27,006 nucleotides of DNA from Fragilaria crotonensis (taxonomy: Eukaryota; Bacillariophyta; Fragilariophyceae; Fragilariales; Fragilariaceae): assembly GCA_022925895.1 (NCBI GenBank), contig JAKSYS010000763.1, positions 1-27,006 on the forward strand. The letters are read 5' to 3'. The notes beneath the pieces were generated by a model. It was given only the letters and a program-made list of their open reading frames with translations, was not told where the DNA came from and searched no databases. Both the position numbers and the translations under genes were made by a program. This document shows, piece after piece, positions 2,497 through 19,786 of this stretch. Every line of letters starts with the position of its first letter. Within the stretch, counting starts at the first letter, position 1.

Positions 2497-3004
2497 TCAC
2501 TTCCCGACCATGGCACATATCCGCTCGCTCATGCGAAACTTGTACTCCTTTATTTTGGAGCTTCCTATTTCGATGAAAATCGATTTTTACGTGATTGCTT
2601 CTTCCGAGACGAACGTCTCTTGCCTCAAGAAGGACTTCCCATATCGGGACCGTATGATATGGCGATTGTGTATGTTAGTTCCGACGAGGAGGAGGGATCC
2701 AGCGAATGGATTCACGTTTTGGACACTGCCGAAAGGAATGCCTTGAGACGAAAGTTCCAAGTCGGCAGTACACTCCAAGAAGCCAAATTCACAGTCCCGT
2801 CCTTATTCGTGATTGATTCCGCCTCACACGGCGTCATGACGCCCATGGGCTTGATCGATTTGAAAGAAAAGGGTTCCGAGGCGTTGGAGGGGGTGGTTGC
2901 AATTCCAGAATTCGATACAAGATTTGGATCCCAAGGTATGGGCAGACTCGGAACTGATCAATAACGAGGAAGACACTATCCTGTTAAGGAGAGGAGGTCA
3001 CTAA
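2497..3004 (+). pseudogene. Nucleoredoxin / thioredoxin-fold protein, broken and lacking the catalytic cysteines
   Basis: Reading from 2497 gives KLVLLYFGASYFDENRFL, then YDMAIVYVSSDEEEG, RNALRRKFQV and VPSLFVIDS. These correspond in order to the first strand and active-site loop, the IVYVSSD strand, the helix before the cis-proline, and the cis-proline strand of nucleoredoxin-like proteins. Known members carry WCPPC after the first strand; here that place reads SYFDENR, so no redox cysteine pair exists. No ATG lies in this frame before 2620, and a TAA closes the frame at 2494. No AG acceptor dinucleotide occurs between 2497 and 2540, so an ordinary intron cannot remove the stop. The frame then breaks at a run of five G (2889-2893). 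The next frame continues convincingly (QDLDPKVWADSELINNEED) to a stop at 3002-3004. A decayed gene or a gene with sequence errors is the best reading. Confidence 0.65.
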
Positions 3005-3771
3005 GCATTTGTTGTGGATGCACTTCGATTTTGACATTGTGGAGTGTTTTTAGCCTCTGTCGGCGATCATGCAAAGAAATTGGACCAATTGATTCTATTC
3101 GGTCTCGACATGTCTATTCAAATGGCATCATCGTCGACATTGTCCACTGCAATGGTTCTTGCCTTCGCTAGAGTACTTAATGAGAAGTATGCGCACACCA
3201 TGCTGCGGAATAGTCAGCACAATAGGTTGGCGACAGACGGCAGGCGCAGGAGGTTTTGATTACAGGACTTACAATGTTCAGGAAAAGACTCAATGCGGAG
3301 AGAGCACGCAACATGCAACCAATGTATTGGTAGGATCTAAACGTCTCACTGCGTATTCTCCGCCCACGTTCTACGGGGTACTCCGAGCCTGAGCCTCCAT
3401 GACACCATGATGATGAACATTGGACGTAGGAAGTCGTATAATAGTGGAGCGGCGTTGGTGAAGCTGTCGCAATTGTAGGTAGGGCACAGGAGTACAATTT
3501 ACTTGTACCAGTTTATTGTCGTATGATACGAAGATTGCGCGAAACGAAAACTGTACAGTTGTGCATGCATGATACTACAGTGACGTTGCGGATACTGTAA
3601 CGTTTTGGTGAGACTAATCACGACCGCGCTGTTCTGCGCTTGTCATTCGAAGGAAAGAACAACTTGTTGAAATGTCATTGATGACACTGGCACGATCAAC
3701 GGTTTCTGTTGACCTCATGGGATACATAGCACTTGCACAGAGTTGACGTCTTCCTCCATATCTGAAAGCAC
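3005..3771. other. Spacer without recognisable gene
   Basis: Open frames at 3044-3259, 3159-3392 and the minus-strand 3177-3497 overlap one another and show no domain or coding-like composition. I see no RNA gene. The last part should contain the promoter and 5' leader of the acyl-CoA dehydrogenase, but no clear box is visible. Confidence 0.5.
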
Positions 3772-5186
3772 ATGCTGCGTATTTTGCCGTCATCGTTTCG
3801 AGCATGGGCTCATCATCCTAAAGCGCATCAATCGGCTCTCCGTCAGAAAATGTCAAAGGATAAACGGCAGGCTACATCTGTGTCATCATTCTCATCCTCT
3901 TCTGGAATGCATCTTCCCATCACCCAATTCAACGAAGACGAGCAAATGACGCGGAATGCAGCTCGACAATGGGCACGTGAGGAGTTGAAACCAATCGTTC
4001 GAGACATGGACAACGAGGAAAAGCTCCGCCCGGATATCATTCGATCACTATTTGACAACGGATTCATGGGAATGGTAAGTTTGTACGTGTGTTACACTAC
4101 GAGAGCTCAGTCTAATCACTATCTTTACTCCATATTTCTCACGAGCATGTACCAACTTTTCTCATTCTCATTTCGCATATTGTCAACAGGAAATCCCCGA
4201 AGCCCACGGCGGATCGGAGCTGAGTTTCACATCTGCCTGTCTCGTGGTGGAAGAGATTTCTAGAGTGGACCCATCCGTAGCAATTCTGGTGGACATTCAC
4301 AACACGCTCGAACAATGCTGTTCGATTTTGGGGATCGGAAGCCCTCCAACAAAAGTGGTTGCCCCGCCTCGCCCGCGATTCAGTCTCATCGTTTGCCCTG
4401 TCGGAAGCCGGGTCAGGGTCTGACGCATTCAGCATGAAAACTACCGCAACTCAGATTCAGGATGGATCATCATCCTATCTTCTCAATGGGAGCAAGTTGT
4501 GGATCTCTAATGCTCCTGAAGCCGGAGTATTTCTAGTGTTTGCCAATGCTGCGCCAGAGAAGGGGTACAAGGGGATCACAGCTTTCGTGGTTGACGCCAA
4601 GACCGAAGGGATTACTGTGGGGAAACCTGAAAAGAAACTTGGACTGAAAGCCTCATCTACTTGCCCTGTCATGTTTGACAACGTTCGAGTGGATGTCGAT
4701 GACGTCCTGGGGGAAGTTGGCCAGGGTTACAAATACTGTATCAACATTCTCAATGAAGGTCGGATTGGGATTGCCGCCCAACAGATCGGGATCGCCAAGG
4801 CCTGCGTCTATGACATTGCCATGCCGTATTTGTTGGAGAGAAAGCAATTCGGTAGTGCCATTGGAGATTTTCAGGGCATGCAGCATCAATACTCTCAGAT
4901 AGCTACCGAGATTTATGCAGCAGAAACCATGACGTACAATGCTTGCAGACTGAAGGAAGCAGGGTATCCATTCATCATGGAGGCCAGCATGGTCAAGCTG
5001 TATTCAAGCCAGGTAGCTGAGAAGGCTGCAAGCAAGACAATTGAGTGGCTGGGTGGCATTGGTTTCACGCAGGATTTGCTGGCAGAGAAGTTTTATCGGG
5101 ACTGCAAAGTTGGCAGCATTTATGAGGGTACCTCCAACATTCAACTTCAAACCATTGCCAAGCTTATCCAGGCCGAGTATAAATGA
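3772..5186 (+). CDS. Short/branched-chain acyl-CoA dehydrogenase, mitochondrial (one intron, one frame break)
   Basis: FAD-dependent acyl-CoA dehydrogenase, closest in remembered sequence to the short/branched-chain enzyme ACADSB, which oxidises acyl-CoA to 2-enoyl-CoA in mitochondrial branched-chain amino acid or fatty acid breakdown. Exon 1 (3772-4074, 101 codons) begins with a basic, Ser/Ala-rich, acid-free leader (MLRILPSSFRAWAHH) typical of mitochondrial import. After the intron, exon 2 begins EIPEAHGGSELSF and runs through VDPSVAILVDIHNTL. At 4310 the frame changes: family alignment predicts one residue between NTL and NNAVRFWGS, so two bases appear missing. From there the frame used at 4359 onward is intact: SEAGSGSDAFSMKTT (flavin site), LNEGRIGIAAQ, and GSIYEGTSNIQ, whose Glu is the catalytic base in this family. 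It ends in QAEYK, as the family does. The break is either a sequence error or a lesion that makes this copy null. Confidence 0.88.
4075..4189 (+). other. Spliceosomal intron in the acyl-CoA dehydrogenase gene
   Basis: The donor is ATG|GTAAGT at 4074/4075 and the acceptor TCAACAG|GAA at 4189/4190. The tract before the acceptor is pyrimidine-rich. Length is 115 nt, phase 0. Splicing joins GFMGM to EIPEAHGG, exactly where the family has a continuous GxxxIPExxGG segment. Confidence 0.85.
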
Positions 5187-6522
5187 TACCAAGTTTCAAG
5201 ACTGAACCGTCAATGTATAGGCGGCTCAAATGAGTCTGACGAGACATGAACGGGATCATCGCCTTCCGAATGCCGGGAGGCGAACGATGCTGAAGGACAA
5301 GACTTTAAATCACCGTGTCGCACCTTACCTAGGTTGTACGACACATGCTCATCAGATCTTTGCTCTAGTAGTAGTCGAGCATTGACATGGATGTTCCCCC
5401 TAAGCGAATACTCCAGTATCCCATTATGATTTTACAGTAAATCAGTAGTGGAGTCAGTAATTGTCCTGGTACTCCAGTACGGTACTCCTTGCGCGTTTTA
5501 CCAGAGAGTACTGTAGCATGCATATACGGTGCATCGGAGTTAGATGTTCGCAACAAGTTCAATTCTCGCCTGCTGCACCGACTATCGACGTCGAACTCTG
5601 GAGGTTCCGGAATTCCTGCTAAATAGTGCATCGTACTCCGTAAAGGATTGGTAGAATTTGTCAGTGCATATTGAAAATGTCTCAACCACGAAATTCTGTT
5701 ATTTACGATCAGATCTCATGTCAAAACGTGACGCACCTTTGAGACTTCTATGTATAAATCCTGAATGATTATGTATAATATGTTTGTCTATTAACTATTT
5801 GTGTCATACCAATATCACCTTCACCTTCCTACACACGAGCTTGTTCTACAATACGGTAAATTCATTTTGTCCTCGTTGGCAGACTATCGTTCGGACAAAT
5901 TGTTTTCGAACAAGAGTTACAGATAGGAATCTTGCGTTAAGTAAAGTTGAGAAAGAATGAGAAAGTTTAAGAAAATATGAGAAACTTCTTTTTTCTCACG
6001 TCCGATTGAGAAAGTTTGAGATTATTTAAGAAAATTTAAGAAGGTGCGATTTTATTACCAGGTTCACGTAGATTATTTGAGATTTTATAAGCAACTCAAA
6101 TCTTCTTAAAGTTTCTTAAGAAAGTTTGAGAAAACTTAAGAAAATTTAAGAAACAGCTCGAAAACATATGTATCTTGACGATTCCTAATGAGAAGATTCC
6201 ATTCGAATGCGACGGAGAATCAAACGTGAAGAATTCATTCCCATCGGATTGTCATACCAGTCGATACCAGTGCATTTTTCCAAGCCTTCTTTCATTTTTT
6301 TCTAGGCGAATTTGTCGTACGTACATTTCTACTATTCCATGCTTACTGCGAATTTAGATAGGTTTACCATATTGAATAAAAATATTTAGTTTGTATGTCA
6401 AATGCGAAATTCCGTAGGAAATCACTAAAGTCGTCGTAACCGTTTTCACTTAATTTCATGTCGGTCGACATAAGCGTCGAAAAGAAGATATTCCGGAACC
6501 TCCTGGAATCCAATACGTTACG
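5187..6522. other. Spacer between acyl-CoA dehydrogenase and GST genes
   Basis: No gene seen. The first half contains GTAC-rich words (5455-5520) of the kind found in all long spacers here. The second half holds a purine-rich, A-tract repeat (separate entry, 5947-6154). Short open frames at 5365-5685 (-) and 6175-6357 (+) have no coding features. Confidence 0.5.
5947..6154. repeat. Degenerate A-tract repeat (TTTAAGAAAA / GAGAAAGTTT)
   Basis: About 200 bp built from variants of GAGAAAGTTT and TTTAAGAAAA recurring roughly every 10-11 nt, broken in the middle by a pyrimidine patch (CTTCTTTTTTCTC near 5985). A 12-bp perfect palindrome, TTTCTTAAGAAA, lies at about 6112-6123. Phased A-tracts of this kind are known to bend DNA. 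The function here is unknown. Confidence 0.6.
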
Positions 6523-7362
6523 ATGGCAACAGCAACTGTTCCGAAGTTTCGTTACCTCTCTGCATGGTTCTGCCCCTTCGCTCATAGAGCAACGCTAGCG
6601 TTAGAGCATCACAGTGGTAGAGTTGAGTACGAATGGGTGGAAGCGTTGGGTTGGGAACAACGCAAGGATGAGAAGAATGTGACGGGCACAGGGCAAGAGT
6701 GGTGGTACCATTGGAAAGCCGATGAATTGAAACGCGCGAACCCATCAGCTCTTGTCCCAACTCTGATCCCTGTCGATCGAAATACAAATGTGGCTGACGA
6801 AGGAAGGGCTGTGTACGAATCACTTGTGACTGTCGATTTCGTCGATCAAATCAGTGGTGCTACTGGAAAGGATCGACTGGTACCAGAAGATCCATATGAG
6901 GCCGCACGGTGTCGAGTGTGGGCAGATAAGGTCAACAGGGATTGCTGTTCTCCATACTACGGCGTCTTGGTGCGCAAGGAAGAAGAAGAACGAATGGAAC
7001 ACTTCTCTAACCTCCTTAAAGGATTAAAATCATTTTCCTTGGAGCTAAAGAAGACCAACGGTCCATTGTTCCTTGCGGATTCACAACTCTCAAATGTCGA
7101 CATCTCTCTTCTCCCTTGGGCATTCCGCTTTTATGTCTTCGAACACTACCGAGGTCCAAACTACGCCATTCCGACTGACGATCCCGAGTTGGCTCCCTAC
7201 CACGAATGGCTCGATCACCTTCTGAGCCTAGATTCGGTGCAGCGCACTCTACCAGATAAGCGTGAGTATCTTGTACACATTGGGAAAATATGCAGATTCG
7301 TCGGCGAGATCGAAGGTCGCCAATGCGGTGCGAAGAGGTGTGGCGGCACACGAACTCGATGA
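6523..7362 (+). CDS. Omega-like glutathione S-transferase
   Basis: Probably a cytosolic glutathione-dependent thioltransferase/reductase. The N-terminal thioredoxin-like domain starts YLSAWFCPFAHRATLALEHH. CPFA with Cys17 is the active-site signature of the omega class, where glutathione forms a mixed disulfide with the cysteine, unlike the Tyr or Ser of other classes. ANPSALVPTLIP (about 76-87) supplies the cis-proline and the DEGRAVYESLVTVDFVD segment is the glutathione-binding helix. An all-helical C-terminal domain follows (ADKVNRDCC to LPWAFRFYVFEHYRG). Near the end, after LVHIGK, a run of four A (7285-7288) shifts the frame. With one A fewer the protein would end YADSSARSKVANAVRR and so on, stopping at 7379-7381, which is more family-like than the present tail. 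The change affects only the last 25 or so residues, so the enzyme core is intact. No neighbour suggests a pathway. Confidence 0.88.
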   Translation: MATATVPKFRYLSAWFCPFAHRATLALEHHSGRVEYEWVEALGWEQRKDEKNVTGTGQEWWYHWKADELKRANPSALVPTLIPVDRNTNVADEGRAVYESLVTVDFVDQISGATGKDRLVPEDPYEAARCRVWADKVNRDCCSPYYGVLVRKEEEERMEHFSNLLKGLKSFSLELKKTNGPLFLADSQLSNVDISLLPWAFRFYVFEHYRGPNYAIPTDDPELAPYHEWLDHLLSLDSVQRTLPDKREYLVHIGKICRFVGEIEGRQCGAKRCGGTRTR

Positions 7363-7460
7363 CGAGAAAGATGAGTATTGAGGATGGAGATTAGGACCTA
7401 TCGTCATAAACACGTGCTCAACCTTCGATAATAGTGACGCTCCACTAAAAGTACTGTACT

Positions 7461-7496
7461 GGTACTGGTACCGGTACCGGTACCGGTACCGGTACA
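7461..7496. repeat. GGTACC hexanucleotide microsatellite
   Basis: Tandem GGTACT/GGTACC copies, at least five, each a perfect palindrome, lying 80 bp after the GST stop. This is the extreme case of the GTAC bias of the spacers. Confidence 0.85.
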
Positions 7497-8785
7497 AGTA
7501 GCTATCAAATACTCGGAGTGTTTTCGAGAATATGACATAACGAAGTTCGTTGCCATACTGGAGCAGGGTGGAGCACCGAGTACATAGTACCTGTGTACCA
7601 TGTACTCGAGTACCTGGTACTAGTACTGCGAGTATGTATGCATATTCATATATGTATATGCATAATGCTCTTGGTCGGAACCCTTCGTACTCTGCATACG
7701 TAGGACTCGGAGTACAATACTACTGAACATTCAGCACAGGTACTCGAATAATCCAGTACTGGAGCACTAGCTAGAGTACTACCGGTAGAGAACAAGCCAC
7801 TACAGACCATTCGGGCTGTGAAGAAGTGGACCGATTTTTGGTTATGAGTACAATTTTATATAAAAATGCCGTTTTATTTAACCTTCCTTCACCGCCTGTC
7901 GAGGAATGTACTTCTATGGTGCGTAATAAATGAATAGATTGTTTTGGAAAAGACGTTAAATTCCCCTCCAAATCCGCCACTGGTGCAACAGGTTGACGAT
8001 GTACGCATTCTACGGTGCTTCGATTGATGACAATGAGTCAAGAATTACTTCGTTTCTACATTAACAATGGCGATAGTTACTTGCCCTTCAAGGCGGATGG
8101 AACAATTCAATCCATTAATAGCTACCGGTAGTCATCAGTCGTTTGTAGGGTTGTTGGCAGTCGGAAAATTGAACCAGTAGTTGAGGTTCTGACACCCTCG
8201 TTCGACACGGATTCCAGTATTTCAGAAGTGGAGCACCGCACCAAGATATGGAAAGCACAGATAAACAACAAGCATGCTGGGGAACATGGCGTACCGAAGG
8301 TTGATCATTCAGAGTTGTTCTCTACTCTTGATTGTAGTGAGCTTGTCTTCGGGAAACTGGTGAAATCATCGTTGGCAATCTTGGTGATAACGGAGCGAAT
8401 CGTTCGTTAAAGGGGACAGCATCACAGGCAGTTACTTCTCCTTAGCCCTGGTACTGTTTGCAGCTATTAGCATTAACTTGGGGAATTGCTTGATGTCAAA
8501 TACTAGTGAAAGCCCCATTGAATGTGCATCTGGGTCACCGGCAACAATGAATGCTTCATACTACTACTACAAGTACCACTCTTGTGCTGCTTCGCATCAA
8601 TTATGATTTTGGATTATTCTCCACAGAGAATCTACATAGGAATTGGTACATAAAGAAAGATTCAACGGGCCAATGAGAGTGAGACTTGGACCTTCCGTAG
8701 AGCGTACGCGGGAACTAGTACAACCCTAGTTTTCTTCCCCGTGGAAGGCCAACTCCAAGCCTAACATCGACTTCACCAAAAACCA

Positions 8786-8862
8786 AAACGACGACAAGAG
8801 CGTGCACTATGTGAGACCCCTCAATGCATTGAACACTATTGTGCACGCTTTTATCGTCGTTT
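8786..8862. repeat. Imperfect inverted repeat with 22-nt arms
   Basis: The left arm (8786-8807, ending GAGCGTGCAC) pairs with the right arm (8841-8862, beginning GTGCACGCTT) over 22 positions with two mismatches. The 33-nt loop itself contains the 12-bp palindrome TCAATGCATTGA. It could be a small foldback element, a transcript hairpin or a protein site. No flanking target duplication is evident. Confidence 0.7.
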
Positions 8863-9454
8863 CAAGAATTGATAGAGTTGTCGCACATCGAACATCGGGA
8901 CTGACCGTTAAATACTCTGAAAAATAGTATTTTTATATATGTTGTCAAAGTCCGATAGCAAAAACTGTCAGATAACGGTATGCTGGCTGGATCGGTCCAC
9001 TGCTTCAGAGCCCGAATGGTCTGTAGTGCTACTGTAACGAGCACGCCGAATACACCATGCATACGCAAGTTCGTTCTTGGACACGCCGAGTTTTATGCAT
9101 GGATGACATATGAACAGGCATGTATGAATACAATACGCGAACTTCACATTCAACACATTCAAAGCAATATCGACGAATCTGGGAAAGATCCGACGTCGAA
9201 GTCGGCATTTTGTGTCAATCTTGGTCGTGCACGCGCATGTCACATCTATCGTCGACCATCTACACAACAATATTACAGTGATCTGTACACTCCTTAAGTA
9301 GAGTATTTTTGCTCGATGCGAACTGTCCACTTTAGAAAACACGTAAACGAAAACCATCTTTCCGGCCGTCTCAGCTTTTAAAGTCTTACGTACCCTACAA
9401 TCGCCATCACCAACCTAACTCTTCTTCAACTTCCCATTTGAACATTCACATAAG

Positions 9455-9559
9455 ATGAATCCGGCAGCCCACAGCGACAAAGTAACAACTTACGACGGTA
9501 AAAATACGCAATGGACAAGCTGGGCAATCAGGTCGATCTTTTTCCCTCAGCGTCGTTGA
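9455..9559 (+). promoter_or_regulatory. Upstream open frame overlapping the ankyrin gene start
   Basis: The ATG at 9455 opens a 34-codon frame (MNPAAHSDKVTTYDGK onward) that ends at 9559, past the start of the ankyrin gene at 9511 in another frame. It could lower translation of the main frame. Alternatively it is the true N-terminus, separated by an indel from the ankyrin frame. I cannot decide which. Confidence 0.3.
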
Positions 9560-10395
9560 TTGACCTGATCACACAGGAGATGTGGGACGACGTGATGAAT
9601 CGACTCCAAAAATGCGATGACGACGCTCGATCAATTGGCGTGATCAAGCTCTTCGGCACGCGAACGAAGGGTTATCCATTACATGCTTTATGCAAGAAAA
9701 GGAGTTTTCCTATGCCAGTGCTTACTGCGTTGACAATAGCCATGCCCGCAGCTGTGACAACCACTGTGGGCCCCTCCAAAAGTCTCCCCATTCACATTGC
9801 GTGCACCAGGAATGCGCCACTACTAGCAATCGAGCACCTTGTTTCCCTCCACCCGGAGAGTCTTCATTTCCCTGATTCGGAAGGTAACCTTCCTATTCAC
9901 CTTGCTTGCTCAGTGGGTGAAGAATCTGTGGTGACATTCCTCGCCTCCGTTAGTCCTGAGTCTGTTCGAATGACAAACTCAAAGCTCCAAATGCCTCTAC
10001 ACTTGGCATGCAATCGATACAACATTTCAATTGGTGTGGTCGAGCTGCTCTTGATGCGATATCCCCAGGCAGCAAAACATAAAGATTGGCAACATCAGGT
10101 CCCCCTTCACAAGGCCGTAACGTGGAGGGCGAACGTCGGCGTGCTTGGAGCACTTCTGAATGTCGTCCCGGACGCCACTCGCTTCCGCGACAAGCGATCA
10201 CTGACACCATACAAAATCGGGCGGAAGCTCTTGGGCTTCAACTCTGATGATCCCACCATCAAACTGCTTCGACGTCATCGGTTCAAGCATGGCATGTTCG
10301 CATTTCGAATATTCGATGCTGTTCTTTTCAGCATCGAGAATGTGAGGGATAAGGTGCTACCAACGAAGAGATCAAGAACAGCAAGGGCTTCCTGA
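9511..10395 (+). CDS. Ankyrin-repeat protein
   Basis: Encodes 294 residues without signal peptide or membrane segment, so probably an intracellular protein-binding scaffold. Repeats recur every 34-37 residues, each with the ankyrin TPLHxAC-type turn and the following helix: GYPLHALC (54), SLPIHIAC (91), NLPIHLAC (126), MPLHLAC (161) and VPLHKAV (197). The linking segments have the LLxxxPxAxxxxDxxG pattern. The N-terminal 50 residues (LFPSASLIDLITQEMWDDVMNRL) form the short helical cap seen in the large ankyrin families of diatoms. The basic C-terminus (RRHRFKHG, TKRSRTARAS) is outside the repeats. The ATG at 9511 is the first in frame; an overlapping upstream frame begins at 9455. The partner and pathway are unknown. 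Confidence 0.85.
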   Translation: MDKLGNQVDLFPSASLIDLITQEMWDDVMNRLQKCDDDARSIGVIKLFGTRTKGYPLHALCKKRSFPMPVLTALTIAMPAAVTTTVGPSKSLPIHIACTRNAPLLAIEHLVSLHPESLHFPDSEGNLPIHLACSVGEESVVTFLASVSPESVRMTNSKLQMPLHLACNRYNISIGVVELLLMRYPQAAKHKDWQHQVPLHKAVTWRANVGVLGALLNVVPDATRFRDKRSLTPYKIGRKLLGFNSDDPTIKLLRRHRFKHGMFAFRIFDAVLFSIENVRDKVLPTKRSRTARAS

Positions 10396-11120
10396 GCTGA
10401 CCGCTTACGGTATCACTGCTGTCGATTCCTTGCAAGTTTCATGCACGCACATAGTAGAGAGTCGACGACTGTGAAAGCTAGTGAGGGAAAGGGTCTCGAC
10501 TGATATGGAGGAGGAATGTGCGAGAGTAAGTTAGTCTTACCCCTGGGATGGGCAGTCGCAAACTCTTCTGTAACCGATGGTACTTTTACGGAAATCGCGT
10601 GCTAGGGGTCAGTGTTTAAGCATTGTGACATCCAAGTTGTCCTTCAATCAAGAGTCTTCAGATTCGTGTTCCTCCCAACGTCGCAACCAAAGATCGGATC
10701 ATGGCTTACCTTTTCCATGTGATGCCGCTGACTGGAATTAAAATAATAGACTTAATGTCCTAGATTGCCCGATGCAGGCGAGACTAACCACATGCATAGC
10801 CTATCTCTTGATCCGATAGATAATCGTCGGCGGAAGCGCGATTGCTCCTGTTATGTGCGAGTTGACCTTTTTTTATAGTGCCCTAATACCGATAGTCTTC
10901 GTGTCTTTATACTTCGTATGCACATTCACTACGGGTACGAGTACCGGTACCCTAGTATTTTTTCGACGGTCAAAATCCAGTACAAGTACCGCGACGAGTT
11001 TATACAACACAGTCAAGTACGCCGAGTGATACAGACCCTGGTATTTAAATAATACATACTCCGAGTACAGCTATATCTATGCATATGTCATACAAGTAAA
11101 ACGATGGATTGAAGTGAGTC
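10396..11120. other. Spacer without gene
   Basis: No open frame of note. GTAC words are dense from 10935 to 11070. GTCATACAAGTAAA at 11088 resembles GTCATACAATTAAA at 17117, outside the other end of the accessory block. Confidence 0.5.
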
Positions 11121-11144
11121 CCCGTCTGTGTCCCCATTTCGAGC
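11121..11144 (+). repeat. Left inverted repeat of the candidate element
   Basis: 24 bp, beginning CCCGTCTGTG and ending CATTTCGAGC. Identical on the opposite strand to 17036-17059. A 24-bp match is not expected by chance in 27 kb. Confidence 0.85.
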
Positions 11145-11457
11145 CGTCCATGCATTTCAAAGCGAACTTCATAGTGAAGGGATATATCTTATGATGTGAA
11201 TGGAAAAAATATAGCACATGTATACTTTTATATTAATATATTTTAACGGCTAAATCACAGATCGATCGATGTTGCGACAGCATAGGAATCTTGGTTTCCC
11301 TTTTTTTGAAAAAAAATGTGCTGTTCAAGTTCGAGGATGTTACTAGCATTTTGTGTGTCCTTCACACAAAACACACACAAATTTCAAACCAGCCCCATTA
11401 CCATTCTTGTCCCTCCTACTCTTCTCCTTTGTTCCCCACTTTGCATTTTGTTTCTGT
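11145..11457. other. AT-rich leader of the accessory block with a short hairpin
   Basis: No gene. A perfect 9-bp stem (TTTTGTGTG / CACACAAAA, loop TCCTT) occupies 11349-11371, followed by CA-rich and then C/T-rich sequence. Runs of T and A (CCCTTTTTTTGAAAAAAAA, near 11298) form another weak inverted repeat. Confidence 0.5.
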
Positions 11458-11930
11458 AACGCTCACAGTTCACAGAGGAGTCAGGTAAGTTGGGCAATGA
11501 TGTTTTGCGGTGTTTGTGATGGATGTTTGTTACTGTTTTTTGACGCTTGTTATTTCATTTCATTTTGGCGCGGCTTGTTGTACTGTATGGGACTGCCGCT
11601 TGTTTCTGCAACGCTCACAGTTCACAGAGGAGTCAGGTAAGTTGTGCAATGATGTTGTTGCAGTGTTTGTGATGGATGTTTGTTACTGTTTTGTTGATGC
11701 TTGTTACTTCATTTCATTTTGGCGCGGCTTGTTGTACTGTATGGGACTGCCGCTTGTTTCTGCAACGCTCACAGTTCACAGAGGAGTCAGGTAAGTTGTG
11801 CAATGATGTTTTTGCGGTGTTTGTGATGGATGTTTGTTACTGTTTTGTTGATGCTTGCTGTTACTTCATTTCATTTTGGCGCGGCTTGTTGTACTACTGT
11901 GCTGCTTTTTGTACTGTATGGGACTACCGT
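11458..11930 (+). repeat. 152-154-bp tandem repeat, three units
   Basis: Units begin AACGCTCACAGTTCACAGAG at 11458, 11610 and 11764, giving periods of 152 and 154 bp with few differences. The third unit runs into the 126-bp array. Each unit contains TCAGGTAAGTTG, a perfect 5' splice-site consensus, and ends in TTGTACTGTATGGGACTGCC. That end is the apparent seed of the following array, because the array repeats TTGTACTGTATGGGATCT. An open frame passes through the units, but they are better explained as non-coding. Confidence 0.85.
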
Positions 11931-11940
11931 TTGTTTCTTG

Positions 11941-12715
11941 TACTGTCTGGGATCTCGTACTACTGCTGCGTGGGATCTTGTACTACCGTGCGCTTTCGTA
12001 CTGCACTGTATGGGATCTCGTACTACTGCTGCATTGGATCTCGTACTACCGTGTCATTTGTTGTACTGTATGGGATCTTGTACTACTGCTGCATGGGATC
12101 TTGTACTACCATGCCGTTTCTCGTACTCGTACTGTATGGGATCTCGTACTACTGCTGCATGGGATCTCGTACTACCGTGTCATTTGTTGTACTGTATGGG
12201 ATCTTGTACTACTGCTGCATGGGATCTTGTACTACCGTGCCGTTTCTCGTACTCGTACTGTATGGGATCTCGTACTACTGCTGCATGGGATCTCGTACTA
12301 CCGTGTCATTTCTTGTACTGTATGGGATCTTGTACTACTGCTGCATGGGATCTTGTACTACCGTGCCGTTTCTCGTACTCGTACTGTATGGGATCTCGTA
12401 CTACTGCTGCATGGGATCTCGTACTACCGTGTCATTTCTTGTACTGTATGGGATCTTGTACTACTGCTGCATGGGATCTTGTACTACGTGCCGTTTCCCG
12501 TGCTCGTACTGTATGGGATCTCGTACTACTGCTGCATGGGATCTCGTACTACCGTGTCATTTCTTGTACTGTATGGGATCTTGTACTACCGCGTGGGATC
12601 TCGTACTACCGTGTCATTTCTTGTACTGTGTGGGATCTTGTACTACCGCGTGGGATCTCGTACTACCGTGTCATTTCTTGTACTGTGTGGGATCTCGTAC
12701 CGCGTGGAATCTCGT
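11941..12715 (+). repeat. 126-bp higher-order tandem array of the GGGATCTYGTAC motif
   Basis: I count 25 copies of GATCTYGTAC, starting at 11951, 11974, 12014, 12037, 12074 and so on to 12691. In the regular part the spacings alternate 23, 43, 23 and 37 nt, summing to 126 nt. Four 126-bp steps (12014, 12140, 12266, 12392) are exact and a fifth is 125 because of one lost C near 12487. The last copies shorten to a 57-nt period (20 + 37). Y is T or C in a fixed alternation by pair: the CTCG pair, then the CTTG pair. All three forward frames are open throughout, since 126 is a multiple of 3 and the unit lacks forward stops; the resulting Tyr/Cys/Trp-rich peptides have no credible protein character. 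Confidence 0.9.
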
Positions 12716-12730
12716 TCAAAACCAAACGGC

Positions 12731-12858
12731 CAACGCTCAATGGCGCACTCCAACGCTCGATGGTGCACTCAACCAGCACTCCTAACGTATCATTACTGCG
12801 CCATGTATGATTGTCTGATACGTTATGGGCTGGCGTTGGAGTGCGCCATTGAGCGTTG
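12731..12858. repeat. Nested perfect inverted repeats
   Basis: Outer arms of 26 bp (12731-12756 and 12833-12858, starting CAACGCTCAATGGCGCACTC) are perfect reverse complements. Inside them a second pair, TAACGTATCA (12783-12792) and TGATACGTTA (12816-12825), is also perfect. A degenerate direct copy of the outer arm follows it at 12751-12770 (CAACGCTCGATGGTGCACTC). The structure sits just after the 126-bp array and would form a two-stage stem in DNA or RNA. Confidence 0.85.
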
Positions 12859-12889
12859 CACGGTTCGATGGATGATAGTATCCGACACC

Positions 12890-12931
12890 CGTTGCATACT
12901 CACAAGACCGCGTTGCATACTCACAAGACCG
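12890..12931. repeat. 21-bp direct duplication
   Basis: Two exact, adjacent copies of a 21-bp unit that starts CGTTGCATACTCACAAG, at 12890-12910 and 12911-12931. Confidence 0.85.
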
Positions 12932-13013
12932 CTGCTGGGAAAGGTCCTCCATCCTCACTCAGTGACTTAAAGAGCTTCTCTCATTAATTCAAATAGCTCC
13001 CATTTTTACTCAT

Positions 13014-14474
13014 TGACATTGTATGTGGCAGCAGTAGTGCCGCGACCAATGGTACTTGGACCATGTTGCAAGCTTCATCGTGAAAAAGGTCACTGCTAGC
13101 CCCCAGCACATTGTACCTGGTAGCAGTAGCGCCGAGATCATCGGGAGTGGGAACATGATTCGTAGTTGCGTTGTGAAAAAGGTCACTGCTAGCCATCATG
13201 GTAGCAGTAGCACCGAGATCAACGCGACAACAATCATGAGGCCTGCTACCGGTGTGAAAAAGGCCACTGCTAGCCATGACATTGTACTTGGTGGCAGCAG
13301 TAGCACCGAGATCAATGCAAGTTTCAGCATGATGCCTCGTACTGTTGCAAAAAAGGCCACTGCTAGCCATGACATTGTCATAAGTACTAACAGGAGCACT
13401 GATGACATCGAATCAAAACGTGGCTTCGAATGCAAACGTGGCTTCCAACACCTGTACAAGTCAACAACTACAAACTCGAGCCGCAGAGTGAATGAGGCCT
13501 ACAAGGCTACAGTTAGGAATGGTGCTCCAAAAAGCAAAAATGCCATGAGACGTGACAAAGCAAAAGCAAGAAAGATTGCGTGCCTGACGGAAGTTGTGTC
13601 ATCAAGTGTTCATGCATTGGGAAGGGCATTTCTGAGCACTCGACCAGTGTTTTACAGTGGAACCAAAAATCGAACGCTTCCAAACCCAATTCCGAATGGG
13701 ATTATGTTATCTGCAGTTGAGGATTTGCGTGTGATTGATACAATTTCTGGTGCTCGAATGTTGTCATCGACCGGAGATACCGTTTTTATTTTGATTCCAC
13801 GTCATGACGCAATCAAGGACAATACTTATGTGAAGAGGACATTGATGGCACTGTATGCTCTAGACAAAGGGAAAAGGGTTTCGAAGTGAGAGGGAAATCA
13901 AGAATCACAGTTGCGAAGACAATGGGAAGTACGCAACTGTCGGCTTGAAACCAAGGAGAGGGTCGACAGGCGTATCCGAGTTTTGGCCTGAGAAGTTGGG
14001 TGAGACTGATAGAGAGGTGATTAGAAAAGTAATGAGTAGATGTCAGGAAGTTGCCAAAGGGTATCTACCATCAACTGAAGTCCGAGGACTTCTTTTGCTC
14101 AATTGCTTGGGGGTGGCAGCAAATAAGTGGAGTGACATTGAATCCTCTGGGGTAGCCTTGCATGTGGGAAGAATTACTATTTGAATTCTCATGTGGATGA
14201 AGACTTTTCTATTCCTTGACAACTGTTGCTTCGAACAGGAGTGCAAGACAATGATTGTTACATGATGGAAGCCGCCATTTGCAACTACTTTACGTTTGCC
14301 GAACAAGGAATTGCTGTGGCGCTGAGGCCTGGTGACATGCTGATCTTCAATCCGCTTTATCATCACTGCTTGTCGTCACGAACGGCAAGGTATGAAAACG
14401 ATGATGTCTTCTGCTTGTCTTTGTATTTGAAAACTGCAGTTGTTGGACAGAATGACAATCGTTTACCTATGTAA
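13014..14474 (+). pseudogene. 2-oxoglutarate/Fe(II)-oxygenase-like protein, multiply frameshifted
   Basis: Coding-like sequence continues over 1.4 kb but changes frame several times. N-terminal part (13056-13889): four repeats of KK[VA]TAS...GSSSTEI, then a basic linker (MRRDKAKARK) and a globular part (RPVFYSGTKNRTLPNPIPNG, GDTVFILIPRHDAIKD). After a frame change near 13870-13877 (a run of A) the text reads DNGKYATVGLKPRRGSTG and SEFWPEKLGETDREV. A second change near a GGGG run (14148) gives SLACGKNYYLNSHVDEDF, with the HxD pair of the double-stranded beta-helix oxygenases. After further breaks at 14205-14235 comes EQGIAVALRPGDMLIFNPLY followed by HHCLSSR, carrying the distal His and the Arg expected for 2-oxoglutarate. 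It ends at 14474. I remember a repeated diatom gene family with this C-terminus, and TET/JBP-type oxygenases ride on some transposons, but no substrate can be assigned. The 5' end is uncertain; repeats start at about 13014. Confidence 0.6.
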
Positions 14475-14556
14475 TTTGTTTAATTGTGTTCTTGGTAGCT
14501 TGCGTTTGCTATCATCGTCGTCGCAGTTGTTGTCACTTTGGTTGCAGTCGTCCTGG

Positions 14557-14818
14557 GATCTCGTACCGCGTACCGCGTGGGATCTCGTACTACCGTGCCG
14601 TTTCTCGTACTGTATGTGCGTATGGGATCTCGTACTATCGCGTGGGATCTCATACCGCGTTGGATCTCATACAACACCGTTTCTCGTACTGCGTGGGATC
14701 GTTTGGCGTGGGATCTCGTACTAGCAACCGCGTGGGATCTCGTACTGTGTGGGATCTCGTACAGCGTGGGATCTCGTACAATTGTACAGCGTGGGATCTT
14801 GTACAGCGCGGGATCAAA
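14557..14818 (+). repeat. Second, irregular array of the GGGATCTCGTAC motif
   Basis: About 12-13 copies of GGGATCTCGTAC or close variants, in the same orientation as the array at 11941-12715 but with irregular spacing (15-45 nt) and a GCG-rich linker (ACCGCGTGGGATCTCGTAC). It starts about 80 bp after the stop of the oxygenase-like remnant. Together the two arrays bracket that gene. Confidence 0.85.
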
Positions 14819-14883
14819 ACATGAGTCACTACAAATATGTGACCATGAGGAACTACAACATGAGTTTGTAATTGATGTTTAAG

Positions 14884-14980
14884 TACTTCTACTAACTTTT
14901 TATTCATTTCTTTTCTTTCGGACGACACTAGCGTGAGTACTTCCAACTCTCTTCTTCTTACCTTTCTAGTACTCTTTGTC
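14884..14980 (+). other. Splice-acceptor-like sequences downstream of the second array
   Basis: TACTAAC at about 14886, a T/C-rich tract and ACACTAG near 14931 together resemble a branch point, polypyrimidine tract and 3' splice site. GTGAGT follows at once, and then TTCTTCTTACCTTTCTAG, a second acceptor-like end. They may belong to a plus-strand transcript through the repeats. No plus-strand exon can be shown after them. Confidence 0.3.
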
Positions 14981-15020
14981 ATCTGTTGCGAAGCACCTTC
15001 ACGAAAGTTTGCAACTGCCT

Positions 15021-16607
15021 CTAAGCGGGAGAAACCTCGTCAAAGAAAGGAATCCTCTGCATCCCAACTATCTTCCTTGTTGCTGACAGCAGCTTAGACA
15101 ACCCGTCATTGCTGAAGAAGCGTTGCTCGATCGAAAAGTTTGAGTGACATGTGCAACAGCATTCCTGCCCACCTGCGCACTTCGGGCACAGGTTTCCTTC
15201 ATCACAAGAACCCTTATGGGCAGTTGATGCACCAAAAGCTCCAGTGTGATTGAAAGCACTGTTCTGTGCATCAACATTGATGTTCATGACATGGAACCGA
15301 CGATGCATTTCCAAGCCATAACACTGGCTGCACACGTTGAAATCCTTTTGTAGCAGCTGCTCACATCCCCAACAGTGCATATATGTGTTTGATAACTCAT
15401 GATAGCAAAGACTGCAAGAGTATCCTGTGTTATCATATGGATCAACAGGAAACACAGACAGATTCTGAAGCATCAGTCTCACGTGAGCAATAATGATTGT
15501 GCTCAGAACTGGATCCCCTGTTCCTCCCAGTCCTGATTATAGTGAGAAGCCAGGTGGCTGTATTGTCGTGTACAAGAAGAATGTAATCAAGGCTTTCCTC
15601 ATTGCGCAAGTAGTGCACAAGTCTTTCAGCTGGTGATTGACCTAAGTCCACTGCAGTACCGCCACCAGGACCGACCTGATTTCCTCGTGCCAGCACACCT
15701 CCTCAGCTGGTCAGAGGAAAGAGATGCCAGTTCGCTCCACAATCAGAGCCTGCACAATTGCAGGCTCTGAATTCAGTGAAATGCATTGCCTAGATAACTC
15801 AAGTTCCAATTGCGGCACAGTGTGATACGACAATCGGACATCAGCAGGTTCCTTTTTGGTGACCTTCATGGGATTTACACCCTGTCCCATCCGCACAAAA
15901 GTACCAGCGTCCAGCAACGTTGTTGTTAAGGCCATCATTTGGTTCCCAATATAGTGAGAATGCAAATGGACATATTGACTCCTTGTTTGCTGCTGAGGGG
16001 CGAATGCGTTTGACGAACGACCGGAAGACTTGTACTGGTTGATGTTGTTGTCGTTGTTGTTGTCGTTATTATCATTGTCATTGTCGTTGTCATCAATCTT
16101 GTTCCTCAAAAGATCCTTCTTGTCGTCATGAGCTCGAGAGTGCTGACAAAAGAATCGCAGTTTATTCGATGCCTTCTCCCAACCTTTGGATGCCACTTTG
16201 AAACCTGCCTGGGCACATGCCACTGCAATAAATGGGATCACATGCTCTTTTCGGGATGAGGGACTGTTGGAATTAAAGCGACGAGGCAGATATTGACGAA
16301 GGTGCTTGCAATTGTCATCCCGATTGCTACGCATTCCGGTCCCAATGAAGTCAGCAAGATTAACAGTCCTGATGGACTCATCACCGTCGCCAACTTGAAC
16401 TTCACTGTCACCAACCTGAACTTCACTGTCACCAACCTGAACTTCATCCTCACCAACAACCTGAACTTTGTCCTCACCAACAACCTGAACTTCGTCCTCA
16501 CAAACCTGCCCTTCAACAAGCTGAACTTCTATAGGAAGAAATTCAGTGACCCATTGTTTATTCACCTCAACAAGAGCAGTAATGCGACTGAGGACAAATG
16601 GATCCAT
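15021..16607 (-). pseudogene. Cysteine-rich (zinc-binding-like) protein with EVQV repeats, frameshifted
   Basis: Minus strand, ATG at 16607. The first frame (to 15711) has tandem EVQVVGED / EVQVGDS repeats (about residues 38-72), then a basic region (RSNRDDNCKHLRQYLPRRF, KVASKGWEKASNKLRFFCQ), a low-complexity Asp/Asn run (DNDNDNDNNDNNNDNN), and VPQLELELSRQCISLNSEP. A second frame (15696-15442) reads AERLVHYLRNEESLDYI followed by LLVHDNTATWLLTIIR. A third frame, joined near the C4/C3 runs at 15515-15527, carries a long Cys array. It runs YSCSLCYHEL, MHCWGCEQLL, FNVCSQC, CPKC and CCCTCH, ending at 15021. The spaced CxxC pairs suggest two or more zinc sites and resemble, from memory, the Cys-rich part of some diatom and oomycete JmjC proteins. 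No JmjC core is seen. Convergent with the oxygenase-like remnant. Probably a decayed gene of the same element. Confidence 0.55.
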
Positions 16608-17035
16608 TAGTAGTGAAGTAGCTCGTGTGCCCCTCCTTCACAATGGTTGCCCCGCAGTCGATCAATTGTTGTTGTGTGCTGTGTTGATCGTGATGTGTTG
16701 TTGTGTGTGCGTTGTTGTGTGTGCGTTGTTGTGTGTGCGTTGTGTTGCTTAGTTTGTTTGTTCTCAGTTTTGTGATGAGAGAACCCGCGCCAAAAAACAA
16801 ATGACAACAAGAGCAGAGGATGATAGATCCAAGTCACAAAACTTTTTTGAATATCACATCATGCAAGATTCCATTGAGGCAGTTGTAACACATGTATTAA
16901 ATAACGTCTCACAACCGTAAGTCAAATAGTCAAAAAAATGAAACGGTAAAAAAACGGCAATTGTATGACATAGACCATATAGTACTTTAATAGTATTTAA
17001 TTGTACAGTGTAAAAATAATTAGCTGGCTTGATGC
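16608..17035. other. Right flank of the accessory block, no gene
   Basis: Contains a GT-rich imperfect tandem repeat (GTTGTTGTGTGTGC, about 16680-16745) just upstream of the minus-strand gene, then AT-rich DNA up to the right inverted repeat. Confidence 0.5.
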
Positions 17036-17059
17036 GCTCGAAATGGGGACACAGACGGG
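17036..17059 (-). repeat. Right inverted repeat of the candidate element
   Basis: Exact reverse complement of 11121-11144; begins GCTCGAAATG and ends ACAGACGGG on the plus strand. Confidence 0.85.
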
Positions 17060-19786
17060 CTCTCCTAACCAGGACCTGAGCGGAGTATACACTGCAGTAC
17101 AAGGATTTTCCCGAGAGTCATACAATTAAAGTATACTTTCCGACCTGCCCTAAGGTCCAGTTGTGCGTACGTTCTGGTACAAACGACACGTAGGAACAAG
17201 GGCAAACGTCGAAAATCATACTTCTAGCTGTATGACTTTCCGAGCGGCCCTAATCCAATTCACGTCCGTGTTTTGACGAGCGTTGACAGTTAAAGAATGG
17301 TTATTCCCCTGTACTTACTTCGACATTTTGAATTTCGCGCACTAATCGAGATTTGTACGACAGTACTCGAAGTACAGTACATAAGAAAAATGAACGACAA
17401 TAGAGCAGTACTACAGTAGTACAATACCTATATATCCAGCGTCGTGTCGTTGCAGTTTGTGTTGTACTAAGAACAACTATGCATGCTGAGAAATAGCTAT
17501 TAAATAATAGCAAGTCTATTATACCTGCTACCACTATGCCTAAGATGAAGGTATTTGACTCACATGGATAGGCACAACACTCCTGTGGGATCTGCAATCA
17601 TTTTTCAGTAGGTGACATCATGACAACAATGGCAAATTAAAGTATTGCTTCTCTGATGAGTCGATAACTTTTCCGAAAGATAGACACATGAATCGCGAGC
17701 AATTTTGGTGACTCCTACTAGGGGATGTTGGTCATGATCAGAAACGTCTTGATGTGACAGCTTCTGTACTTTCACCTCGTACTGCATTGTATGAGGACAT
17801 CAGTACTACTACTAGACCTCCGTTAATTGCTGGCGCATTTTGCATTTTGAGGCCTCTGCTTGGGTGTGATTGTAGTGCCTGTGTGTCCCTTGATTCTGAT
17901 GTTTCCAAAGCTTGCACCATTGTTCCCAACATATGAGTTGGATTAAATTTGCCTGCCATGCCAAGCTAGTATATTGATTGAGGTCATCATTGTCATCTCA
18001 TTGAGGAGATGAGTAGTAGTAGCATTGCTGGTGTTGCCCATGCTAAATCTCCTCCAAAATAATGGAGCCCATCCATTCCTGTTTTGTTGTATGATTATGT
18101 GTTGCACTGTGGGGTGATAGTTCTCAATATCAGTTCAGGAGCAGAACCAGCACTGCCTGGCATAACCCATCCAACAATAGAGCAGCAGCACAAAGCAGCA
18201 GGAAGGTGTTTGGCTGAAGAAAGAAATTGCAATTTAAGTCCAGTCAAGAACTGATTGTGCCATTCTATGCAATTGCTAAGCTCAGCACATCATATAGTAG
18301 CTAGTACTAGTACTAGTAGCCTAATGCTGAGGCTAGAAGTGATGATGCTTGTGCATTCTTGAGTGGATGACCTGGACAAAAAGACTCACTTTACTAGAAT
18401 GAGCTTCCCAGTTGATCAATTTAAGGGAAGACAGATTCCATGCATTCTTTTGTCAAATGTTTTGGCAAATGCCCCATGAACAGAAGTTTGTGAATCCACA
18501 GTGATGCTCCAATTGGGAGGAATCAATGGACTCTAGCTAAAGGAAACATGAGAACAATCCCTCAGAGTTGTGAATCGCTGGTAATACTCTGCTGAGAGTG
18601 TATCTGGACTCTGGAGTACAAGTTGTAAGTACTGTACTGCTAGAACCAAAAGCCCTACTGTACTACGGAATGTACTACTGAATTAAATACGGAATGTACT
18701 TAGTACTATGAAATGGAGTACTACTGTACTGAATTTACTACGGAAATCATGTGCGTACCGAGTTACGTATGACATAGTGATGAACGTAATGTATTTGTAC
18801 TGTACCTGGTACTCGGAGTACAATGTATTGCACTACGTAATGGAGTACTCGAGTATTAATACTATGTAACGTCCTACGTAATGCCCTACGTAAAGCGATA
18901 CACACATTCCTGTCCTATTGATACTTCATGGTTCTAGTTTCAATATAACTAACATTGGATAACTCCACTTCCTTATACCATTTACGTACCTTTTCAGAGT
19001 CATACAGTGCAGGACACTTATAAACGACAATTATTATTTTTGTTTCAAATTCTCAACTAGTGTGCACTGTAGTACTGTACAGCAATTGTTGTACTACATC
19101 CACGTTTGAGCTCATAACCTGTCAGCCCGTCTTCACCATTCCAGTACCATTATACTACGGTAGTGATCTAGAAAGTGGTTACAGTGCGTACTAGTACTGT
19201 ACGATACAGTAGGTCTTCCAGTAGTGTTATACTGAGACCTCTGTAGAACCTACACAACGATCGAGTTTGGGTGATTTGTAGGCTTCAGTATTTTCGAAAA
19301 AAATGTGTTTCAAATTCTTGATCCAAATTTTAGATTTCTCTGAATCGTCCAGAAATGTAATAAAAAGTGATCATTGCGAAAAAATGTTGCACCTTCCGAG
19401 CTCAATAAAACTTTCAATTCTCAAAAATTAAAAAAAGTAATCCGAGGAAACACTCAACAATCTGATCAAGAAGCACTTTGTCGGATTAATATTTTTATCT
19501 TCATCCAGGGAAGGGGAGATGTTTCTTAACAAATTTGTGTCGTTTATAAGTGTCCTGCACTGTACCTTAGGTGTATGATTTCCTCCACCGCTTATCAGGT
19601 CCAATATCGGATAAATGACGGTTTTAAGGTCGAGAGCACCAGCCACATTTTTTTTTCAATATATTTTTTCCTATTTTTCCACCATTCAGTACGAGGAGAC
19701 ATCACCAGATTCGTCATCGCCACATGTGACGAACTCACGTGTGTGTTGTTCATCCCTGTGGTCAGCAACGATATTTTGACACGGCT
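17060..19786. other. Long spacer without supported gene
   Basis: About 2.7 kb. A weak direct repeat pairs 17118-17175 with 17216-17275 (shared TCATAC, ACTTTCCGA and GCCCTAA). Minus-strand open frames at 17738-17959 (ATG start, MAGKFNPTHMLGTMVQ) and 17605-17787 adjoin one another but match no family I know. GTAC/TACTAGTA words dominate 18290-18320 and 18600-18900. The last 200 bp are AT-rich with T runs and should include the leader of the SET gene. Confidence 0.5.

Follow-up and report, generated by a model that had tools for sequence, protein, structure and literature searches.

A MULE-type transposon family of the diatom Fragilaria crotonensis with an oxygenase-like gene bracketed by short-motif arrays

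A block within a 27,006-nucleotide stretch of contig JAKSYS010000763.1 of the diatom Fragilaria crotonensis (the whole stretch is termed the window herein) belongs to a DNA transposon family with at least eight copies in this genome, a diatom-type genome that encodes a silicon transporter, and we regard the identity of the block as a transposable element as almost certain. The best overall explanation, which we consider probable, is a MULE-type transposon with an oxygenase-like gene, for which we propose an anti-silencing role with cognate motif arrays. The window copy is an internally deleted, non-autonomous element of 5949 bp (positions 11116 to 17064), delimited by ends that are shared and flanks that differ among the genome copies.

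The element is bounded by terminal inverted repeats that match exactly over 24 bp (11121 to 11144 and 17036 to 17059) and at 93% over 29 nt (left repeat at 11116 to 11144 on the + strand, right repeat at 17036 to 17064 on the − strand); the chance expectation of an exact inverted 24-mer pair is ∼1.3e-6 for a random sequence of 27 kb with equal base frequencies. The original prediction had taken the 24-bp match to be beyond chance and to mark the ends of a mobile element without a clear target duplication, all of which was borne out, except that the limits of the block moved outward to 11116 and 17064. A comparison with the rest of the genome, which it had proposed, revealed several loci that share both ends, with flanks changing there. 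Seven copies have both ends, and in all seven the flanks differ and homology stops no more than 2 bases from the 29-nt repeats, so that the block is not tied to a single fixed location. Nor is the end sequence scattered on its own, as all 14 exact genome matches of a 20-nt core of the terminal repeat are ends of element copies. No target site duplication was found in any of the seven two-ended copies (8 to 11 bp are expected for the MULE superfamily); three of them have shared words of just 4 to 5 bases, off the junction. At the C12 insertion, four paralogous empty sites have 3 to 11 bases where C12 has the element. As to the related pair C388 and C54, the C54 element has terminal inverted repeats of 143 bp and no target duplication visible by eye, and no terminal inverted repeats were found within the 8.5 kb examined at C388. 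A segmental duplication or subtelomeric repeat instead of a transposon, which the location of some relatives of the oxygenase-like gene near contig ends might suggest, is very improbable given seven copies that end at the same inverted repeat in different flanks, the empty sites of C12, and the transposase encoded by other copies. Two words, GTCATACAA[G/T]TAAA at 11087 and 17117, had been proposed to mark a wider boundary; this was rejected because they are placed asymmetrically about the element ends and the right-hand one sits within an unrelated repeat starting near 17069.

Among copies free of foreign inserts, the longest (10.6 kb) contains, between 29-nt inverted ends, an oxygenase-like gene on the + strand and, on the − strand, frames with helicase-associated (HA) domains and a Cys-rich product as well as a MULE transposase gene with a SWIM finger. 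Pfam scans of the C12 transposase matched PF10551 (E = 2.2e-6; 28.4 bits versus a cut-off of 27.6), PF21056 (E = 8.5e-7, above the cut-off), and, just above its cut-off, the SWIM finger family PF04434 (19.9 versus 19.6 bits), and the transposases of C388 and C54 matched PF10551 more strongly (E = 1.5e-11 and 45.1 bits; E = 5.6e-12 and 46.4 bits). No KDZ family was matched, and a KDZ identity, with which the block had earlier been compared, was rejected. The DDE domain, SWIM finger, and terminal inverted repeats of the MULE superfamily are present and the 8- to 11-bp duplication is absent; because of this absence, we term the family, by its predicted transposase, MULE-type rather than a typical MULE.

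In longer copies, an open reading frame (ORF) with two HA domains lies upstream of the Cys-rich ORF on the same strand, and we infer that the two may constitute one gene. Copy comparison identified the Cys-rich ORF of the window (15021 to 15466, − strand; zinc-ribbon/ZZ matches weak and below the cut-off) as the 3′ part of a − strand gene. It abuts a deletion junction (15466/15467) that joins positions 4298 and 8986 of the C497 element, beyond which ORFs, copy comparison, and Pfam revealed the 5′ part of the MULE transposase gene (15467 to 16607, − strand), whose product starts with MDPFVLSR. The window copy retains 12% of the transposase core stretch and is non-autonomous, as predicted, because the deletion removed most of the catalytic core; it would therefore be mobile only with enzyme from other copies. 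Two broken convergent genes had been predicted, and the oxygenase-like (+) and Cys-rich (−) remnants are indeed there, but the count of two did not hold: at least three reading frames have left remnants, and on the − side the deletion has fused the 5′ part of the transposase to the 3′ portion of a different frame.

Repeat, motif, and inverted-repeat scans located a tandem array with a period of 154 bp and 2.9 copies (11448 to 11895), an upstream array of 24 copies of GGGATCTYGTAC in a 126-bp higher-order unit (11923 to 12715, + strand), an inner inverted repeat (12724 to 12865; 33-nt arms at 12724 to 12756 and 12833 to 12865), and a downstream array of 8 copies of GGGATCTYGTAC (14551 to 14815, + strand). 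The nested inverted repeat and both arrays of the original prediction are thus real, and its 126-bp period was correct (measured over 11923 to 12700), with 154 bp measured in place of 152 bp. Genome-wide, GGGATCTYGTAC occurs at 195 sites, versus 5 for the reversed pattern, and 185 of the 195 lie within the eight element copies. At C388 and C54, a second motif flanks the oxygenase-like gene in opposite orientations. Short-motif arrays hence bracket the oxygenase-like gene in the MULE-type elements examined, and in the window's case the motif is nearly confined to the family.

Tandem arrays form easily, and the number of GGGATCTYGTAC varies from 0 to 33 per strand among copies, as would suit neutral, non-binding repeats carried along by the element; however, arrays stand on either side of the gene in the window family as well as at C388 and C54, and within one element both sides carry one motif, making neutrality rather doubtful. 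Slightly less doubtful, but still unlikely, is that the arrays are transposase binding sites (internal transposition enhancers), with the oxygenase-like protein acting elsewhere, e.g., on proteins or histones. SWIM-finger MULE transposases are DNA-binding proteins, and C497 and C12 have six inverted copies of GGGATCTYGTAC between the third gene and the transposase gene. The main arrays, however, bracket the oxygenase-like gene and not the element ends, and the oxygenase-like protein has tandem peptide repeats, like VANC proteins. We favor arrays cognate to the oxygenase-like protein.

In the window, the oxygenase-like gene (13056 to 14474, + strand) was recognized from its ORFs and from relatives with long open frames; it is frameshifted, with open pieces starting at 13056, 13864, and 14220, and ∼93-bp repeats (13025 to 13384) span its 5′ part. 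All six window-family copies holding the gene have it interrupted. Residues H106, D108, H166, and R171 are invariant in five of five aligned domains, and no protein-family match accompanies this motif; we read HxD...H as a candidate iron triad, with the Arg that follows it, of the kind seen in Fe(II)/2-oxoglutarate oxygenases. Searches of Pfam, NCBIfam, and PHROGs did not place the protein in any family, and NCBIfam and PHROGs returned nothing beyond weak hits on unrelated or unknown families. Profile searches of the PDB returned WelO5 (5iqs and 5iqu) and “Oxidoreductase” chains (8aut, 8acv, and 6gem), which share a GDML.FN...H stretch with the protein at nonsignificant E values of 0.96 to 1.8 over 25 to 33 residues, and the top match of each search was unrelated (a DNA polymerase delta subunit and an RNA ligase). 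WelO5 belongs to the Fe(II)/2-oxoglutarate halogenases, and the His of the shared stretch presumably binds iron. From the HxD...H motifs alone, Fe(II)/2-oxoglutarate oxygenase chemistry appears reasonably likely. Membership in the TET/JBP oxygenases, to which the gene had earlier been likened, found no support, as the proteins scanned gave no PF12851 match at any E value up to 10; a genome-wide PF12851 search likewise gave 0 matches, with its control also matching nowhere. Relatives were absent from the viral and genome contigs searched, and the one phage match (residues 2 to 159, the N-terminal repeat region; E = 6e-5) we judge to be repeat-driven.

For the genome-wide distribution, 53 oxygenase-like loci were hand-picked from 99 matches, dropping further fragments of the same loci, alongside 52 transposase loci from 69 matches and 39 helicase places from 73; these counts are lower bounds because the search scores best candidates only. 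More than half of the oxygenase-like loci listed (28 of 53) have one of the 52 transposase loci within 8 kb, where random placement would give ∼0.7 pairs, and 26 of the 28 are convergent; related copies are not independent, and the window family supplies 5 of the 28. Fifteen of the 53 listed adjoin a helicase gene without a listed MULE match, all in convergent orientation, which brings the loci convergent with either a MULE or a helicase gene to 41 of 53. The oxygenase-like gene is thus a recurrent, mostly convergent neighbor of MULE transposases in this genome, in keeping with the original suggestion that it travels with the element. The helicase protein had no match in the PDB, and a tandem-repeat scan of three helicase-type loci found no array bracketing the gene in any of them.

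The oxygenase-like core looks constrained, with dN/dS values of 0.195 between C388 and C54, the one close MULE-type pair (0.128 for the C-terminal part of their transposase), and 0.053 between the helicase-type C121 and C411. The one window-family pair compared, C12 and C197, gave 0.529 over 166 codons, including out-of-frame residues at the ends of the pieces. The gene is probably a working part of the element lineage; we put it no higher because just one close MULE-type pair supports the constraint. MULEs tend to acquire host gene fragments (passages of PMC6446971), the gene also adjoins helicase genes, and it is broken in the window family, which together could indicate captured host cargo hitchhiking without benefit to the element. 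The pairing with MULE transposases at 28 of the 53 loci listed, the convergence at 41 of 53, and the dN/dS of 0.195 argue against such cargo, which we consider improbable.

The CpG observed/expected ratio is 0.685 for the element outside its arrays versus 0.986 in the remaining window, and CpG transitions among copies are in excess (12 of 296 sites versus 7 of 1639 other C/G sites; p = 2.5e-6); because CpG transversions are raised too (5 of 296 versus 7 of 1639; p = 0.025), the excess need not be all deamination. C388 and C54 are barely CpG-poor (0.88 and 0.93). The DNA C5-methyltransferase family has 13 matches in the genome, which is no proof of genome methylation because 10 of 14 prokaryote controls match as well.

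We propose that the oxygenase-like gene would encode an Fe(II)/2-oxoglutarate oxygenase that recognizes the flanking motif arrays and erases or alters a silencing mark, be it 5-methylcytosine, a different base mark, or a histone modification, whereupon the element would be expressed and mobile. By analogy, the oxygenase might act as an anti-silencing factor on the element's own DNA, to which we give somewhat less than an even chance. More tentative still is a self-contained, sequence-directed demodification system in a diatom MULE lineage, in which an oxygenase family outside the libraries searched would read the arrays with its repeat-bearing N-terminus and oxidize methylated bases, oxygenase and arrays would coevolve by family, and the module would have been swapped onto a helicase-bearing element type.

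Fungal transposons encoding TET/JBP were reportedly described by Iyer et al. in 2014. Like the diatom elements with their oxygenase-like gene, they are DNA transposons carrying an oxygenase gene that occurs across different element types; they differ in that PF12851 was unmatched in the proteins scanned here. The abstract of Kojima 2025 (PMC12730594) names ten lineages, MULE/MuDR not among them, and its section 4.2 states that these elements are without experimental validation. The MULE-Diatoms (group 37 of Dupeyron et al. 2019, PMC6446971; entry “No TSD and not indicated”) share with the window family a MULE transposase with a SWIM finger, a stramenopile host, and no target site duplication, but their entry gives one ORF and inverted repeats of 123 to 124 bp, whereas the window family carries additional genes and motif arrays and has ends of 29 nt. 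VANC/VANDAL systems, in passages of PMC5735166, combine family-specific motif arrays in noncoding DNA with tandem peptide repeats. In excerpts of PMC5735166 and PMC10398659, VANDAL/Hiun MULEs with VANC have in common with the window family a second gene, such arrays (here the 185 of 195 sites in eight copies), and peptide repeats of the accessory protein; VANDALs have degenerate ends, in contrast to the 29-nt inverted ends and the accessory protein with oxygenase-like HxD...H here. The likeness is one of layout. In the open-licence literature, we found no account joining a Mutator-like/MuDR transposon, a diatom host, and an oxygenase or dioxygenase.

Sequence-specific resistance of transposons to silencing has been worked out in plant VANDAL elements. 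If the proposed explanation is true, this diatom MULE lineage would be an independent case uniting VANDAL-type arrays with the idea of a TET/JBP-type oxygenase, and it would be testable, as the predicted target DNA lies within the element itself and elements with other motifs would serve as internal controls.

At the block ends, the inverted match is perfect over 24 bp and reaches 29 nt at 93%, and its non-chance origin, claimed in the original prediction, is borne out by the ∼1.3e-6 such pairs expected in 27 kb of random sequence with even composition. A search of the same genome (62.1 Mb, 881 contigs) with window positions 11000 to 17200 revealed long matches of 92 to 98% on seven other contigs (C497, C108, C197, C31, C12, C39, and C355). 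In the read-out, copies start ≤1 base from window position 11116 and stop ≤2 bases from 17064; the C197 copy has a left end altered in its first bases, and the C355 match is confined to the right part. Seven copies, the window included, have both ends, and all seven differ in their flanks, the pattern of several loci with flanks changing at shared ends that had been proposed to mark an element. The terminal sequence is not scattered alone: all 14 exact genome sites of its 20-nt core lie at element-copy ends. The identity of the block as a transposon is firm.

None of the seven two-ended copies has a target duplication, in agreement with the original prediction, which saw no clear one; shared words of 4 to 5 bases occur near the ends of three, off the junction. 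The joined flanks of the C12 copy match across the junction at four related empty places (C659 twice, C477, and C60), which upon alignment exceed C12 by 6, 9, 11, and 3 bases at the element position; because of these extra bases, this insertion made no duplication and likely involved a short sequence loss. An unrelated repeat (beginning CAGGACCTGAGC; 17069 to 17224 and beyond) starts near 17069, 4 bp after the right end of the element, with 13 further matches (91 to 100%) in the same genome search; since the three upstream flanks read differ, this start is the repeat's own end. With ≤3 mismatches, the 20-nt core has 47 genome sites, versus 1 for the reversed control; they include ten further inverted pairs, eight of which are spaced 181 to 187 bp start to start and look like MITE relatives. 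In this search, short inverted pairs (∼200 bp) of the terminal sequence with 1 to 3 mismatches, likely MITE relatives, were seen on C152, C173, C626, C704, C764, C42, C230, and C605.

The copies vary through internal deletions. The 10.6-kb C497 copy carries the oxygenase-like gene (+), the transposase (−), and minus-strand frames with two HA domains (PF03457, E value of 1.2e-28) and a Cys-rich end, and the C12 copy has a 697-amino-acid open frame matching PF21056, PF10551, and SWIM PF04434, each over its own cutoff. The catalytic-core stretch is complete in C31, C12, C355, and C497 (with in-frame stops in C31 and C497) and kept to 54% in C39, 23% in C108, 22% in C197, and 12% in the window, where C497 positions 4298 and 8986 meet at the deletion junction, 15466. 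The C39 copy is enlarged, and its several very long open frames (805 to 1,076 amino acids; element positions ∼2242 to 13524) read by eye like an inserted non-LTR retroelement. Dupeyron et al. give their "MULE-Diatoms" a SWIM finger and "No TSD and not indicated" (PMC6446971).

The oxygenase-like family has at least 53 genome loci, counted after merging fragments by hand. A MULE transposase match lies within 8 kb at 28 of the 53 listed (∼0.7 expected at random), in convergent orientation at 26. A further 15 have a DEAD/Helicase_C gene 102 to 675 bp away, always convergent, and 10 have neither neighbor, among them the window copy, which has lost most of its transposase core by deletion. Convergence with a large DEAD/Helicase_C gene was also noted in read-outs L020, L022, L024, L031, and L032, and Cys/His-rich frames lie 5′ of the helicase gene at some such loci. 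Because several helicase-type loci are close to contig ends, these loci may represent subtelomeric sequence or a second type of mobile element. The two MULE-type loci read outside the window family, C388 and C54, share the layout array, gene, inverted array, and convergent MULE transposase; C54 has inverted ends of 143 bp, and the stretch of C388 that was read showed none. An additional divergent gene lies upstream of the oxygenase-like gene at MULE-type C388 and helicase-type C592, C258, and C84 (L040:1-1008 [−], L024:111-539 [−], L031:535-1429 [−], and L032:6054-6964 [+]), with 44% identity over its first part and no Pfam match over the cutoff, as if a two-gene module had moved between element types.

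NYYLN-[ST]-H-x-D and GDM-L-x-FNP...H...R recur in each of the five domains aligned, a pattern that we take to be that of Fe(II)/2-oxoglutarate enzymes. Pfam, NCBIfam, and PHROGs gave no confirming family (best, Cupin_2, E value of 0.23, in two of the five), and PDB profile searches returned WelO5 and chains named "Oxidoreductase" at E values of 0.96 to 1.8, below an unrelated chain in both searches. The product is a putative oxygenase, and "oxygenase-like" should remain its name until the fold is known. The C388/C54 pair has a dN/dS of 0.195 in the core and 0.293 over the whole frame (0.128 for the C-terminal part of the transposase), and the helicase-type pair C121/C411 has 0.053 in the core; deeper pairs have dS near or past saturation, and C12/C197, the only window-family pair compared, gave 0.529 from 166 codons, the piece ends of which include off-frame residues. 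There is good support for the gene as a recurrent component of this MULE lineage that is probably maintained.

Of the two arrays predicted in the block, the period of 126 bp stood, and the period given as 152 bp measured 154 bp. The motif GGGATCTYGTAC has 32 window sites, all at 11949 to 14793 (24 upstream and 8 downstream of the oxygenase-like gene), and 195 genome-wide, versus 5 for the reversed pattern, with 185 inside the eight element copies. C388 and C54 carry a different motif on both gene sides in opposite orientations, the shared core of which has 134 genome sites, versus 0 for the control. In the listed 100 of these 134 places, its arrays adjoin oxygenase-like loci on C54, C57 (two), C169, C270, and C388; those on C274, C328, C428, and C394, contigs for which neither an oxygenase-like nor a transposase match was listed, are possible non-autonomous derivatives. 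Repeats cover the 5′ coding part of the gene in the window, C388, C54, C592, and C84, and no bracketing tandem repeats were found at the three helicase-type loci scanned. VANC proteins of VANDAL MULEs, which contain tandem peptide motifs, are reported to bind short arrayed motifs in non-coding regions and induce methylation loss (PMC5735166, PMC10398659). TET/JBP genes are described in fungal DNA transposons of ten lineages, the list in the abstract lacking MuDR/MULE (PMC12730594), and the accessory genes described in giant DNA transposons of Ectocarpus include one that contains a DNA methyltransferase domain (PMC12477816). In the open-licence literature searched, we found no earlier description of this combination.

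The DNA C5-methyltransferase family has 13 genome matches and also matches in 10 of 14 prokaryote controls; the silicon transporter family has 19, 18 over the cutoff. CpG o/e is 0.685 in the non-array part of the element versus 0.986 in the rest of the window; C388 (0.878) and C54 (0.928) are less CpG poor. Across 6 to 8 copies per segment, transitions affect 12 of 296 CpG sites versus 7 of 1,639 other C/G sites (P = 2.5e-6), with transversions also raised at CpG (5 of 296 versus 7 of 1,639; P = 0.025). This pattern suggests, rather than proves, past CpG methylation of the window family, and we infer that the oxygenase-like gene may have an anti-silencing role.
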